Source: Phytohabitans maris (GTDB lineage: Bacteria > Actinomycetota > Actinomycetes > Mycobacteriales > Micromonosporaceae). Taken from it: a stretch of DNA of 64,000 bases. Under the pieces are notes generated by a model. It had not been told where the DNA came from. It saw only the letters and a program-made list of their open reading frames with translations, and searched no databases. The translations under genes and the position numbers were made by a program. The number at the start of each line of letters is the position of its first letter. Position 1 is the stretch's first letter. The stretch is from assembly GCF_031085175.1 (NCBI RefSeq), contig NZ_JAVHUY010000024.1:62001-126000 (forward strand), written 5' to 3'. Below, one piece after another: positions 2,108 to 50,802 of the stretch.

Positions 2108-4039
2108 TCAGTGCTCTCGGGCGAAACGTCGGAACTCCTCCAGCGACTCGGGGTTGGCCAGCGCGCCGGTCGCCGCCGCCTGCTGGATGGGCGTGCCGGT
2201 GAGGATCCGCTTGACCGGCACCTCCAGCTTCTTCGCGCTGAGCGTGCGGGGCACCGCCCGTACCTGATGGATCTCGTCCGGCACGTGCCGGGGCGACAGG
2301 GCGGTACGAAGCTCGCGGGCGATCTTCTTGCGAAGGTCGTCGTCGAGCTCGCGGTCACCGGCCAGCACCACGAAGAGCAGCAGCTCACCCTGGCCGTCGC
2401 CGTCGATGTGGACGACCACCGAGTCGACCACCTCGTCCAGGCCCTCGACCACGGAGTAGAACTCGGCGGTGCCCAGCCGTACGCCGCCGCGGTTGAGCGT
2501 GGCGTCCGAGCGGCCGGTGATCACGCAGGTGCCCCGCTCGCTGATCGTGATCCAGTCGCCGTGCCGCCACACGCCGGGGTACACGTCGAAGTACGCCTCG
2601 CGGTAGCGGCTGCCGTCCGTGTCGCCCCAGAACCCGACCGGCATGCTCGGCATCGGCGCGGTGATCACCAGCTCGCCGAGCTCGTCGATCACCGGCTTGC
2701 CGCTCGGGTCGTACGCCTCCACCCGGGCGCCGAGGCAGCGGCAGGAGAGCTCGCCCTCGTACACCGGGACGAGCGGGGCGCCGCCGATGAAGCCGGTGCA
2801 GACGTCCGTGCCGCCGGACAGGGACTGGAGCTGGACGGTGGGGCTGACCGCCTCGTACACCCAGGCGAAGCCCTCGGGCGGCAGCGGCGCGCCGGTCGAG
2901 CCGACCCCGCGCAGCCCGGGGCCCATCCGCGGGGTGAGCCCGGCCTTGCGGCAGGCGAGCAGGAACGGCGCGCTGGTGCCGAAGTACGTGATGCCGGCCT
3001 CCTCGGCCATCCGCCAGAGCGCGCCGAGGCCCGGGTACCCAGGATTTCCGTCGAACAGGACGATCGCCGCGCCCACGGCCGGGGCGGAGACGAGGAAGTT
3101 CCACATCATCCAGCCGGTCGTGGTGAACCAGAAGAACCGGTCGCCCGGACCGAGGTCGTGGTGCAGCGCGAGCATCTTGAGGTGCTCGACCAGGATGCCG
3201 CCGTGGCCGTGCACGATCGGCTTGGGCAGCCCGGTCGTACCGGAGGAGTAGAGCACGTAGAGCGGGTGGTCGAAGGGGACCGGCTCGAAGGCGAGCTCCT
3301 CGTCGGTCTCGGCCGCCAGCTCGGCCCAGTCCCCGTCGCCGTGCAGGTACGGCAGCGTGACCGTGTGCCGCAGCGACGGCAGCGCCGCCCGGATCGCGGC
3401 CACCTCGGCGCGCCGGTCGACGGCCTTGTCCCCGTACCGGTAGCCGTCGACCGCGACCAGCACCGAGGGCTCGATCTGCTGCCACCGGTCGACCACGCTG
3501 CGCGTGCCGAACTCCGGCGCGCAGGAGGAGAAGGTCGCGCCGAGGCTGGCGGCGGCGAGCATCAGCACGTACGTCTCCGGGATGTTCGGGGCGTACGCGG
3601 CCACCCGGTCGCCCCGCCCCACGCCGAGCCGGCGCAGCCCGGCCCGCACCCGCCGTACCTGCTCGCGCAGCTCGGCCTTGGTGAGGGTCACCGGCGCGCG
3701 GCTCTGCGAGTACGCCAGCACGACCGGGTCGTCCGGCGCCAGGCCCGGCATCCGCAGCACGTGCTCGGCGTAGTTGAGCGTGGCGCCGGGAAACCAGCGG
3801 GCGCCCGGCATCACCTGTCGCTCCAGCACGGCGGCCGGCTGGTCGTACGCGATGATCTCGAAGTAGTCCCAGATGGACCGCCAGAAGCCGGGCAGGTCGT
3901 CGACCGACCACTGCCACAGCTCGGCGTACCCGGCGAAGTCCAGCCCCCGGTGCTCGCGCAGCCAGCGCAGGTAGTCCCCGATCCGGGACCGGTCCCGCAC
4001 GTCTGCCGGTGGTGTCCACAACACGGTGCCCTCGCTCAT
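2108..4039 (-). CDS. Acetoacetate-CoA ligase
   Basis: Adenylate-forming ligase of 643 residues, the normal length for acetoacetyl-CoA synthetase, which activates acetoacetate to acetoacetyl-CoA with ATP in the cytosol. The N-terminal WSVDDLPGFWRSIWDYF and the AMP-binding motif YSSGTTGLPKPIVHG (about residue 265) are typical of the family, as is ITGRSDATLNRGGVRLGTAE late in the protein. The C-terminal domain ends with LSAKKLEVPVKRIL, which holds the catalytic lysine. The ATG at 4039 is chosen because the domain begins there, GAGGAC lies about 10 bases upstream, and a short conserved mini-gene (4036-4119) ends in an overlapping TGA at this exact start. An upstream in-frame codon at 4069 gives only an artefactual extension. 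Confidence 0.93.
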   Translation of the reverse strand: MSEGTVLWTPPADVRDRSRIGDYLRWLREHRGLDFAGYAELWQWSVDDLPGFWRSIWDYFEIIAYDQPAAVLERQVMPGARWFPGATLNYAEHVLRMPGLAPDDPVVLAYSQSRAPVTLTKAELREQVRRVRAGLRRLGVGRGDRVAAYAPNIPETYVLMLAAASLGATFSSCAPEFGTRSVVDRWQQIEPSVLVAVDGYRYGDKAVDRRAEVAAIRAALPSLRHTVTLPYLHGDGDWAELAAETDEELAFEPVPFDHPLYVLYSSGTTGLPKPIVHGHGGILVEHLKMLALHHDLGPGDRFFWFTTTGWMMWNFLVSAPAVGAAIVLFDGNPGYPGLGALWRMAEEAGITYFGTSAPFLLACRKAGLTPRMGPGLRGVGSTGAPLPPEGFAWVYEAVSPTVQLQSLSGGTDVCTGFIGGAPLVPVYEGELSCRCLGARVEAYDPSGKPVIDELGELVITAPMPSMPVGFWGDTDGSRYREAYFDVYPGVWRHGDWITISERGTCVITGRSDATLNRGGVRLGTAEFYSVVEGLDEVVDSVVVHIDGDGQGELLLFVVLAGDRELDDDLRKKIARELRTALSPRHVPDEIHQVRAVPRTLSAKKLEVPVKRILTGTPIQQAAATGALANPESLEEFRRFAREH

Positions 4040-4119
4040 GCCCGTCCTCGCTTCGCCGCGGGCGGCCACGAGGCTCCAAGCGCCCTGCGCCCAATGATTC
4101 GCTCGCTGCGCTCGCTCAT
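4036..4119 (-). CDS. Leader mini-gene, 27 codons, coupled to acetoacetate-CoA ligase
   Basis: A short frame starts ATG at 4119 and ends in TGA at 4038-4036, overlapping the ligase ATG (GCATGA). The peptide begins MSERSERII, passes through ALGAS and ends PPAAKRGRA. A second copy with the same beginning and end lies at 49790-49864 in front of an unrelated cation transporter, again with a TGA/ATG overlap. Aligned over the shared codons, most differences are in third positions, and the one length difference is exactly two codons (AGC GAG). This is what a translated peptide would show. Its last codons also carry the GAGGAC that serves as ribosome binding site for the next gene. No clear Shine-Dalgarno sequence precedes this copy. 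Confidence 0.5.
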   Translation of the reverse strand: MSERSERIIGRRALGASWPPAAKRGRA

Positions 4120-4172
4120 TCGATCATCTTGCCCGCCTGCCACGTGGCGAGCTAACCCGGTACGGTGCGCGC

Positions 4173-48612: not shown

Positions 48613-49793
48613 GCGCGAGCGTTCGCGGCCGGCGTTCGGTCGACGAGGCGGTGCTGGACGACGCGGCCGCCATCGAGGAAAACGACCCGGGCGGCATGCT
48701 GCGGGCCACCGCCTCCGCCGGCGCGCAGGTCCGCGAGTCGGCGGCCCTGGCCGCGGAGGCCAACCTGGCCGTGCTCGGTGACGAGGGGCGCCCCCGGGCC
48801 GTCGTGATCGCGGGCATCGGCACCGCCGGCCGCACCGGCGAGATCCTGGCCACGGTGGCCGGACCGCGCTGCCCGGTACCCGTGATCCCGCACCGCAGCG
48901 CCGGCGTGCCCGGCTGGGTCGGCGCGGCCGACGTGGTCATCGCGGTCAGCGCCTCCGGGCGCAGCCCCGAGGCGCTCGGTGCCGCCGAGGCGGCCGCCCG
49001 CCGGGGTGCCCGATTGGTGGCGGTCGGCGCGCCCGACTCGCTGCTCCAGTCGGTCGCCGAGAGCGCCCGGGCGCCGTTCATCCCGGTGCCGCGGCGCGCG
49101 CCGGCCCGCGCCAGCCTGTGGGGGCTGACCGTGCCGGTGCTGCTCGCCGCCCGTACGTTCGGCCTGGTCAAGGTCAATGAGGCAGACCTGGCGGAGACCG
49201 CGGCCCGGCTCGACGCGGACGCCGACCGCTGCCGCCCGACGGCCGAGTCCTTCGTCAACCCGGCCAAGTCGCTCGCGCTGGGCCTGGCCGGCTCGGTGCC
49301 GATCGTGTGGGGCTCCTCGCCGCTGGCCGCCGTGGCGGCCCGGCGCTTCGCCGACACGATCTCCGCGAACGCCCGCTACCCCGTGGTCGCCGGCGCGCTC
49401 GGCGAGGCCGGCCGTGGCCGGGTGGGCCTGCTCGACGGCGTCTTCGGCGGGCTGGTGGAGTCGTCCCGCGACATCTTCGCGGACCCCGGGGACGAGCAGG
49501 AGGTGACCCGGCTGCGGGTCGTGCTGCTCCGCGACGGCGGCCTCGGCAACGAGGAGGACGCCGACGAGCCGGTGGCGGTCGAGGAGCGGCGGGCCGACGC
49601 GGTGCAGACCCTCGCCGAGCGGCGCGGCGTCCGCTGCGACGTGGTGACCGCCGAGGGCGGCTCCCCGCTGGAGCGGCTCGCCTCGCTGGTGGCCGTCCCG
49701 GACTTCGCCTCGATCTACCTCGCTCTCGCGCACGGACTCGACCCCATGGCCGTGCCCGCTGTCACTGAGATGAAGGAGCTGAGCAACCCATGA
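48609..49793 (+). CDS. SIS-domain phosphoglucose/phosphomannose isomerase
   Basis: The 394-residue protein has two SIS domains: AVVIAGIGTAGRTGEILATV with VVIAVSASGRSPEALGAAE in the first, and VPIVWGSSPLAAVAARRFAD with YPVVAGALGE in the second; the C-terminus is FASIYLALAHGLDP. It matches bifunctional PGI/PMI enzymes that make mannose- or glucose-6-phosphate from fructose-6-phosphate. The 48609 ATG overlaps the Trm112 stop, and its own stop overlaps the start of the leader mini-gene, so the chain is translationally coupled. Confidence 0.9.
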   Translation: MSASVRGRRSVDEAVLDDAAAIEENDPGGMLRATASAGAQVRESAALAAEANLAVLGDEGRPRAVVIAGIGTAGRTGEILATVAGPRCPVPVIPHRSAGVPGWVGAADVVIAVSASGRSPEALGAAEAAARRGARLVAVGAPDSLLQSVAESARAPFIPVPRRAPARASLWGLTVPVLLAARTFGLVKVNEADLAETAARLDADADRCRPTAESFVNPAKSLALGLAGSVPIVWGSSPLAAVAARRFADTISANARYPVVAGALGEAGRGRVGLLDGVFGGLVESSRDIFADPGDEQEVTRLRVVLLRDGGLGNEEDADEPVAVEERRADAVQTLAERRGVRCDVVTAEGGSPLERLASLVAVPDFASIYLALAHGLDPMAVPAVTEMKELSNP

Positions 49794-49864
49794 GCGAGCG
49801 AATCATCAGGCACAGCGCTTTGGGTGCCTCATGTCCGCCCGCAGCGAAGCGAGGACGGGCATGA
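49790..49864 (+). CDS. Leader mini-gene, 24 codons, coupled to CDF transporter
   Basis: Starts ATG at 49790, overlapping the SIS stop (ATGA), and ends TGA at 49862-49864, overlapping the CDF ATG (GCATGA). The peptide begins MSERII, contains ALGAS and ends PPAAKRGRA. It closely matches the mini-gene before acetoacetate-CoA ligase (4036-4119), with changes biased to third codon positions. AAGGAG lies 11 bases upstream of its ATG, and its end supplies GAGGAC as binding site for the CDF start. Two unrelated genes share this front piece. Confidence 0.55.
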   Translation: MSERIIRHSALGASCPPAAKRGRA

Positions 49865-50802
49865 GTGCTTCTGGCGGCACGCGGGCGATCGTCGCCGCCC
49901 TGCTGGCCAACCTGGGCATCGCGGTCACCAAGTTCATCGCGTGGTTGCTCACCCAGTCGTCGTCGATGCTGGCCGAGTCGATCCACTCCGTGGCCGACTC
50001 CGGCAACCAGGCGCTGCTGCTGCTCGGCGGGCGCCGGGCGCAGCGGCGGGCCACCCCGCAGCACCCCTTCGGGTACGGGCGGGAGCGCTACATCTACGCG
50101 TTCATCGTGTCGATCGTGCTCTTCAGCGTCGGTGGTCTGTTCGCGCTCTACGAGGCGTACCACAAGTTCCAGGACCCGCACGGCATCGACAGCTGGCACT
50201 GGGTGCCGGTACTTGTGCTGTGCGTGGCGATCGTGCTGGAGTCGTTCTCGTTCCGTACCGCGATCCTGGAGTCCAACCACGTACGCGGGAAGTCGTCGTG
50301 GGTGCAGTTCGTCCGCCGGGCCCGGGCACCCGAGCTCCCCGTCGTACTGCTGGAGGACCTCGGCGCGCTGGTCGGTCTGGTCTTCGCGCTCTTCGGGGTC
50401 GTGCTCACGCTGGTCACGGGTGACGGCATCTGGGACGCGTTCGGCACCGCCGCGATCGGCATCCTGCTCGTCACCATCGCGGTCGTGCTGGCGATGGAGA
50501 CCAAGAGCCTGCTGCTGGGCGAGAGTGCCACGCCGGAAGACCAGGCCAGGATCGAGGCGGCGATCACCGCGGGCTCCGAGGTCGAGCGGATCATCCACAT
50601 GAAGACGCTGCACCTCGGCCCGGAGGAGCTGCTCGTCGCCGCCAAAATCGCGGTACGCGAGCACGAGACCGGCGAGGACATCGCCCGGCACATCGACGCC
50701 ACCGAGGCCCGCATCCGCGAGGCCGTGCCGATCGCCCGGGTGATCTACCTGGAGCCCGACATCTACCAGGTCCGCGCCGAGCCGGCTCCGGCCACGAGCT
50801 GA
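49861..50802 (+). CDS. Cation diffusion facilitator (CDF) transporter
   Basis: The 313-residue divalent cation exporter has LLANLGIAVTKFIAWLLTQS, the metal-site motif MLAESIHSVADSGNQALLLL, the QHPFGYGRERYIYAFIVSIV block and the second metal-site helix LEDLGALVGLVFALFGV. A C-terminal cytoplasmic domain follows (SEVERIIHMKTLHLGPEELL). CDF proteins move Zn, Co, Fe or Mn out in exchange for protons. The ATG at 49861 follows the leader mini-gene. A polar insertion (GKSSWVQFVRRARAPELPVV) between helices 4 and 5 places it near the larger FieF/EmfA-like group. Confidence 0.92.
   Translation: MSASGGTRAIVAALLANLGIAVTKFIAWLLTQSSSMLAESIHSVADSGNQALLLLGGRRAQRRATPQHPFGYGRERYIYAFIVSIVLFSVGGLFALYEAYHKFQDPHGIDSWHWVPVLVLCVAIVLESFSFRTAILESNHVRGKSSWVQFVRRARAPELPVVLLEDLGALVGLVFALFGVVLTLVTGDGIWDAFGTAAIGILLVTIAVVLAMETKSLLLGESATPEDQARIEAAITAGSEVERIIHMKTLHLGPEELLVAAKIAVREHETGEDIARHIDATEARIREAVPIARVIYLEPDIYQVRAEPAPATS

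Follow-up and report, generated by a model that had tools for sequence, protein, structure and literature searches.

The two mini-genes lying in the window, i.e. the whole stretch of 64,000 nucleotides analysed here, are very probably copies of a short, non-autonomous, MIRU-like mobile element which is found at RTGA start codons and carries a small ORF that would serve as a ribosome relay. We hold the insertion of the element and the retention of its reading frame with high confidence, and the predicted mechanism by which its hairpins would act with moderate confidence. It was observed directly that the element is dispersed, has empty sites, varies in tandem copy number, is positioned at start codons, retains its frame and possesses covarying hairpins, and that its peptide is not conserved.

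Two copies in the window and a repeat family in the home genome

The features of the window which bear on the element are as follows.

2108..4039, minus strand: acetoacetate--CoA ligase gene, coupled to copy 1
4036..4119, minus strand: element copy 1, long form, 84 nt including both RTGA ends (80-nt unit)
4036..4071, minus strand: right hairpin of copy 1, surrounding an SD-like GAGG (4046-4049) and the ATG of the next gene
4097..4119, minus strand: left hairpin of copy 1, with RTGA, tandem G.A mismatches and a GNA triloop
48414..49793, plus strand: phosphoglucose/phosphomannose isomerase-like gene upstream of copy 2, start predicted
49790..49864, plus strand: element copy 2, short form, 9 nt shorter than copy 1, left hairpin truncated
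49829..49864, plus strand: right hairpin of copy 2, surrounding an SD-like GAGG (49851-49854) and the transporter ATG
49861..50802, plus strand: CDF cation-efflux transporter gene, coupled to copy 2

The ORF of copy 1 has 27 codons (MSERSERIIGRRALGASWPPAAKRGRA and a stop) and ends in a TGA which shares bases with the ATG of the acetoacetate--CoA ligase gene; that of copy 2 has 24 codons (MSERIIRHSALGASCPPAAKRGRA and a stop), and its TGA overlaps the ATG of the CDF transporter gene. At its other end, the ATG of copy 2 is overlapped by the TGA of the isomerase-like gene, which scored above the Pfam bact-PGI_C cut-off and under the curated NCBIfam cut-offs. Model column 23 is the partner of the start codon's first base in the left hairpin of copy 1, whose right hairpin contains a single G-G mismatch (model columns 54/79). 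The covariance model scored copies 1 and 2 at 102 and 83 bits, the next match in the window reaching 12 bits, and Rfam at gathering thresholds gave no match anywhere in the window. An earlier, sequence-only reading of this DNA had placed two mini-frames at 4036-4119 (minus) and 49790-49864 (plus), each with a TGA overlapping the ATG of the following gene, and had counted 11 base differences between them, 8 of these in third codon positions; all of this was reproduced, and the genes behind the two copies, an acetoacetate--CoA ligase and a CDF cation transporter, are unrelated, as it had said. The length change, which it gave as two codons, came to three codons (9 nt) in our recount. The gene before which copy 1 sits is the first of a pair that looks divergent (window 4120-4172).

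BLAST against the home genome (G000; 9.87 Mb in 95 contigs, a draft, 97% complete) gave at least 53 matches (40 of 151 candidates scored), several of them arranged head to tail with a period of 80 nt. The right-end 20-mer, allowing up to 2 mismatches, occurred at 80 sites of this genome against 0 for the reversed control, and the left-end pattern at 52 sites against 0 for the control. This is a repeat family far above chance expectation. Among the 80 distinct extracted sites, NTGA was present at the right end in 78 and the left end was recognisable in 75; the 5 sites lacking a left end, some of which may be chance matches, were omitted from the frame counts, and left-end sites with no listed right end (four were read) stand outside the 80. 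The frame was kept and free of stops in 71 of the 75 copies having a left end, and was off in the other 4. Units of 80 nt accounted for 45 copies and units of 71 nt for 18, and among the 12 copies of other lengths 8 were in frame (binomial P 0.019). Downstream of the 75 copies we found an ORF of at least 60 codons in 62 cases, another unit in 12 and a 52-codon ORF in one. On the upstream side, a coding-like frame ended in a TGA overlapping the left RTG in 35/75 copies, the two remaining frames giving 1 and 0; no such coding-like frame preceded 39/75 copies, partly because copies are located inside arrays. Being short and dispersed and varying in tandem copy number (80-nt and 71-nt units; 0, 1 or 3 at one locus), the repeat is like a MIRU in these respects.

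Two loci deserve separate mention. At one (L131, 519-) a longer frame opens MSERSERNGWLSAAELGYAAG, and the left end of the element may now be the N-terminus of a host protein. At the other (L134, 636-) an intact left hairpin is followed by a right half of other sequence, and the TGA of the 26-codon ORF still overlaps a GTG.

Empty and filled sites

We examined the insertion at three loci, those of copy 1, copy 2 and a tandem array, in five relatives of the same genus (G397-G401). At the copy 1 locus zero inserted bases were present in four of the five relatives (G397, G398, G399 and G401), and G400 had a 71-nt remnant without the left start codon. At the copy 2 locus three of the five (G397, G399 and G401) have no intervening sequence, the end of the isomerase-like gene and the start of the transporter sharing one RTGA; an element is present in G398 and a shortened one in G400. 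The tandem locus holds three units in G000, one in G399 and none in G397, G398, G400 and G401. These clean empty sites at three loci imply that the insertion is precise and variable within the genus, and that neither the start nor the codons of the host gene are altered. In the relatives with an empty copy 1 locus, gggcaagatg plus five bases stand before the start codon and no clear Shine-Dalgarno stretch is seen, and therefore a leaderless start may have been the original target.

The copy 2 locus was surveyed further by fetching 30 loci, of which one (G425) was dropped since its downstream gene was not found, and both genes were placed in the remaining 29. Among these 29 genomes, 14 were empty, 1 had a short gap and 14 had an insert. 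An ORF runs from an RTG overlapping the upstream stop to a TGA overlapping the downstream RTG in 13 of these inserts (P 6e-6, taking a chance of 1/3 for each); the remaining one, in G418, is entered a short way by the upstream gene, and the TGA of the element's ORF still overlaps the downstream ATG. Since the three inserts from the same genus are not independent, we counted the other 11, which come from 11 genera, separately and found the link kept in 10/11 (P 1.3e-4). The linking ORFs are 5 to 33 codons long and their peptides, which include MRAAA, VSVTL and VNGQSDQQGTRT, are largely unrelated apart from three same-genus ones. It is the relay that is kept and not the peptide. The mini-gene had been described from the sequence as portable and as built like a translation-coupling cassette, and on both counts our results agree, with empty sites in same-genus relatives at all three loci tested, 71/75 home copies in frame and stop-free, and a linking ORF in 13/14 inserts at one locus.

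At the same gene junction, G415 (L327) carries a larger insert of other sequence (MSERLRERITRSGFAHALTERGEVSSELAEVSA), and judging from the inserts of G415 and G418 this junction may be a hot site.

Hairpins, coding signal and the proposed relay

RNAalifold folded the element into two hairpins. In 42 home copies 97.6% of the cells were paired, with 32 double-change cells against 10.0 in the shuffled ones, and on sliding the structure along these copies the paired share went down to 20-40%. In 63 distinct copies of other genomes, in an alignment fitted to the model and so biased towards it, 92.7% were paired, and double changes numbered 175 against 54.8. Column 23 and the base that opens the left start codon formed A-T in 43 and G-C in 20 of these 63 foreign copies from eight families, with 0 exceptions, and in the 42 home copies the same pair was AU in 32, GC in 6, GU in 3 and another combination in 1, so that 41/42 pair; the right RTGA is likewise paired. 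The mutual information in the home genome was 0.303 between the two start-codon bases at opposite ends and 0.299 between the base and its partner, and this equality suggests that subfamily history or a shared target also contributes, which argues against a purely structural reading.

Both the GAGG stretch and the start codon downstream lie within the right hairpin. The mean predicted openness was 0.13 for the right RTG and 0.42 for the left RTG, the right one being lower in 51/67 copies and predicted to be no less open than the left in 16/67, and after removal of the 5' arm the predicted openness of the right RTG was 0.55. The wider Shine-Dalgarno windows were nearly alike in openness (0.39 right, 0.43 left). 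Copy 1, with its right-hairpin mismatch, was predicted to fold no more stably than shuffles (z -0.45), and copy 2 with short flanks was stabler than shuffles (z-score -2.62). In short-form copies, copy 2 among them, the left hairpin is truncated.

For codon statistics we took 42 distinct 80-nt home copies and ran 1000 null simulations. Substitutions by codon position were 4/13/44 in the left hairpin, 20/9/41 in the right hairpin and 70/81/78 in the spacer. Synonymous changes numbered 40 against 10.3 expected in the left hairpin and 28 against 16.6 in the right hairpin, and there was no excess in the spacer (28 against 32.2). Within the hairpins, third positions vary most at column 12, which is the N of the GNA loop, and at columns 51, 54 and 81, which belong to covarying or wobble pairs. 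The third-position coding signature is largely a hairpin footprint; the sequence-only reading had taken it for a coding signature as opposed to that of a structural DNA repeat, and this could not be upheld, as the synonymous excess over the null is confined to the two hairpins. Across the whole ORF we counted 0 stops against a null mean of 10.9 (lowest simulation 1). In the spacer alone the count was 0 against 2.1, which is not significant (P 0.11), and hence the hairpin constraint may explain part of the stop-free signal.

We propose that the element would insert at an RTGA start codon, oriented with the gene, such that the host gene would stay whole. The small ORF would take over the old initiation context, be it the RTGA overlap of the upstream gene or the old leader, and its terminal TGA would overlap the gene's own RTG. 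The right hairpin is predicted to fold away the Shine-Dalgarno stretch and the start codon of the gene; a ribosome translating the small ORF would probably open this hairpin, halt at the TGA and restart on the overlapping RTG. The gene's translation would still be tied to its former driver, and the insertion would thus be nearly neutral.

It is very unlikely that these observations reflect a gene whose product, a small functional protein or leader peptide, is conserved for its amino-acid sequence. Such a protein would account for the MSER start and PPAAKRGR end, which are conserved in the home genome, and for the synonymous excess over the whole frame (96 vs 60.3), but this excess belongs to the hairpins only and the spacer has none. 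Furthermore, subtypes of the element differ in the left loop, which is GNA or TT, and the frame following it shifts (MSERSER vs MSELASE) while the hairpin stays, so relatives share the left hairpin and differ in the frame after it; the linking ORFs at the copy 2 locus likewise encode the unlike peptides named above. We rejected a peptide function on the spacer statistics together with the lack of peptide conservation, and the leader peptide which the sequence-only reading had offered as one possibility finds no support as a conserved sequence in the largely unrelated peptides of one locus and the differing frames of relatives. We give hardly any credence to a regulatory leader controlling the downstream genes, e.g. 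by attenuation or stalling. Its location at the start codon, which it is predicted to hide, would suit such a role, but unrelated genes stand behind the two window copies, the spacer is without codon-position bias, and the element is present or absent at the same gene across species of one genus.

A structural repeat of the REP or IS200/IS605 type, of which a Y1 transposase would read the hairpins and the RTGA and in which the open frame would be incidental, is improbable, though it would explain the presence of two hairpins, one with a GNA triloop and G.A mismatches, as well as the covariation of the first base of the left RTGA with an inner base (63/63 foreign copies; 41/42 home copies pair) and the pairing of the right RTGA. 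It does not predict the retention of the frame through decay or the position at gene starts, and PF01797 was without a match in G000 and in 11/12 other carriers. A mobile element at start codons, carrying its own ribosome relay, is the reading that we prefer.

Spread, mobiliser and comparison with known systems

In a sample of the order comprising 397 genomes, 122 matched the element at E <=1e-3, representing 32/86 genera, and matches in its own family amounted to 64/79, the home genome counted. In a sample of the phylum, at E <=1e-5, 5/396 matched, the home genome counted, and two of these lie outside the order and are only partly element-like. In other genomes of the order 53/63 distinct copies were coupled and 10/63 were not (mostly best-scoring loci). 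Copy 1 searched in plasmid and phage collections gave no match, and none was found in viral contigs, which were searched with the exact long-form pattern only. In one genome outside the order (L395, about 1501-1578) the left hairpin alone is present (GTGAGCGAGCGCAGCGAGCGAAC), there is no right half and the frame stops early; in another (L394, about 1510) only a right-hairpin-like stretch is present (model columns 50-83), with no terminal start codon. In a different family of the order, a 95-nt version (MSELASESLDPARSAIG...) is arrayed head to tail (L179 and L193, G030).

The paired RTGA ends pointed to an IS200/IS605-like enzyme as a candidate mobiliser. The home genome (draft, 97% complete) gave no match to PF01797 (Y1 transposase), which was present in 1/12 other element-bearing genomes and absent in 11/12. 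On these counts (0/1 home genome, 1/12 other carriers) a resident Y1 transposase finds no support as the mover, and it is possible that the mover belongs to another enzyme family or acts from outside. We suggest, tentatively, that mobile elements which seek out start codons may form a superfamily throughout the order, to which MIRUs would be a branch or a parallel; the RTGA target might be chosen through pairing with inner guide bases at the hairpin feet, by an enzyme of unrecognised kind, and neutrality might be ensured by the built-in ribosome relay. The guide-base pairing behind this suggestion is that of R with Y, seen in 63/63 foreign copies from eight families.

These results indicate that the MIRU strategy, in which entry is at start codons and the cost is paid by a ribosome relay, is apparently not confined to mycobacteria and occurs in several families of the order. 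The element family provides a natural experiment on translational coupling, in which peptides drift and the TGA/RTG hand-over is kept. The presence/absence pairs can be used to measure the effect of a coupled mini-ORF on expression, and a comparative approach to what moves such elements is now possible.

REP/BIME and IS200/IS605-derived elements have hairpin ends, a tetranucleotide at the hairpin foot and no coding capacity for their own movement. The present element is like them in its hairpin ends, in the foot tetranucleotide and in the lack of own mobility coding; unlike them, its position and direction are fixed at start codons, and its home genome is without a Y1 transposase match.

Supply et al. 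reportedly placed MIRUs at DTGA sites in 1997. We searched with a MIRU query fragment, and at least 117 stretches were matched by it, which we take to be MIRUs; all but one of the 80 matches listed named Mycobacterium or Mycolicibacterium. Among the matches listed, DTGA was present at both ends in 61/91 mycobacterial MIRU copies. The two ends of these 61 copies, again among the matches listed, agree at bases 5 and 6 with frequencies of 0.80 and 0.66 against 0.39 and 0.36 in shuffled pairs, and 43/61 keep the coupling frame length. MIRU ends appear to share RTGANN, and the ends of the present element apparently only RTGA, with base R concordant: in the home genome R was concordant between the ends in 45/53 copies against 35.7, and bases 5-6 in 30/53 against 30.7 expected. 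The core GAGCGNAGCGA is common to MIRUs and to the left hairpin of the present element; beyond the hairpin tip, however, the MIRU sequence is unlike it, and the present element has two covarying hairpins. Covariance model R1, applied to 34 of the 80 listed MIRU loci, did not recover MIRUs above chance. On these 34 loci R1 reached at most 11.9 bits at the MIRU places (E 0.46), most giving 7.3 bits at the tip only, and its best match, of 19.1 bits, lay off the MIRU and was not element-like. With at most 11.9 bits at MIRU places, R1 did not demonstrate sequence homology with MIRU. Since R1 fails on MIRUs, the element works like a MIRU but is not classed as one.

Actinobacterial leader genes, according to the available part of PMC4833913, consist of a short ORF near a gene, proposed to feed it ribosomes by reinitiation; they are listed there by distance, with a peak for Actinobacteria at 10-11 bp. 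The present element is like these leader genes in having a short ORF proposed to supply ribosomes (PMC4833913, available part), and neither 'repeat' nor 'MSER' was found in the available text of that paper. MIRU repeats are about 40-100 bp long and their copy number differs between isolates, as given in the accessible portion of PMC2734929. MIRUs are described as apparently mobile units which enter at start codons and bear an ORF with a coupling distance of -4 nt (accessible portion of PMC12548453, citing Supply et al. 1997). In the literature searched, which included few subscription papers, the family was not described outside mycobacteria. The earlier statement that no description was known may hold for the element family itself, and did not hold for its architecture, as mycobacterial MIRUs of equal architecture are already described in what is accessible of PMC12548453. 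As a short dispersed start-codon repeat with an ORF coupled at -4 nt spacing, a MIRU (as portrayed in the same portion of PMC12548453) is what the present element most resembles in its organisation, and the element is a MIRU-like family of one bacterial order.
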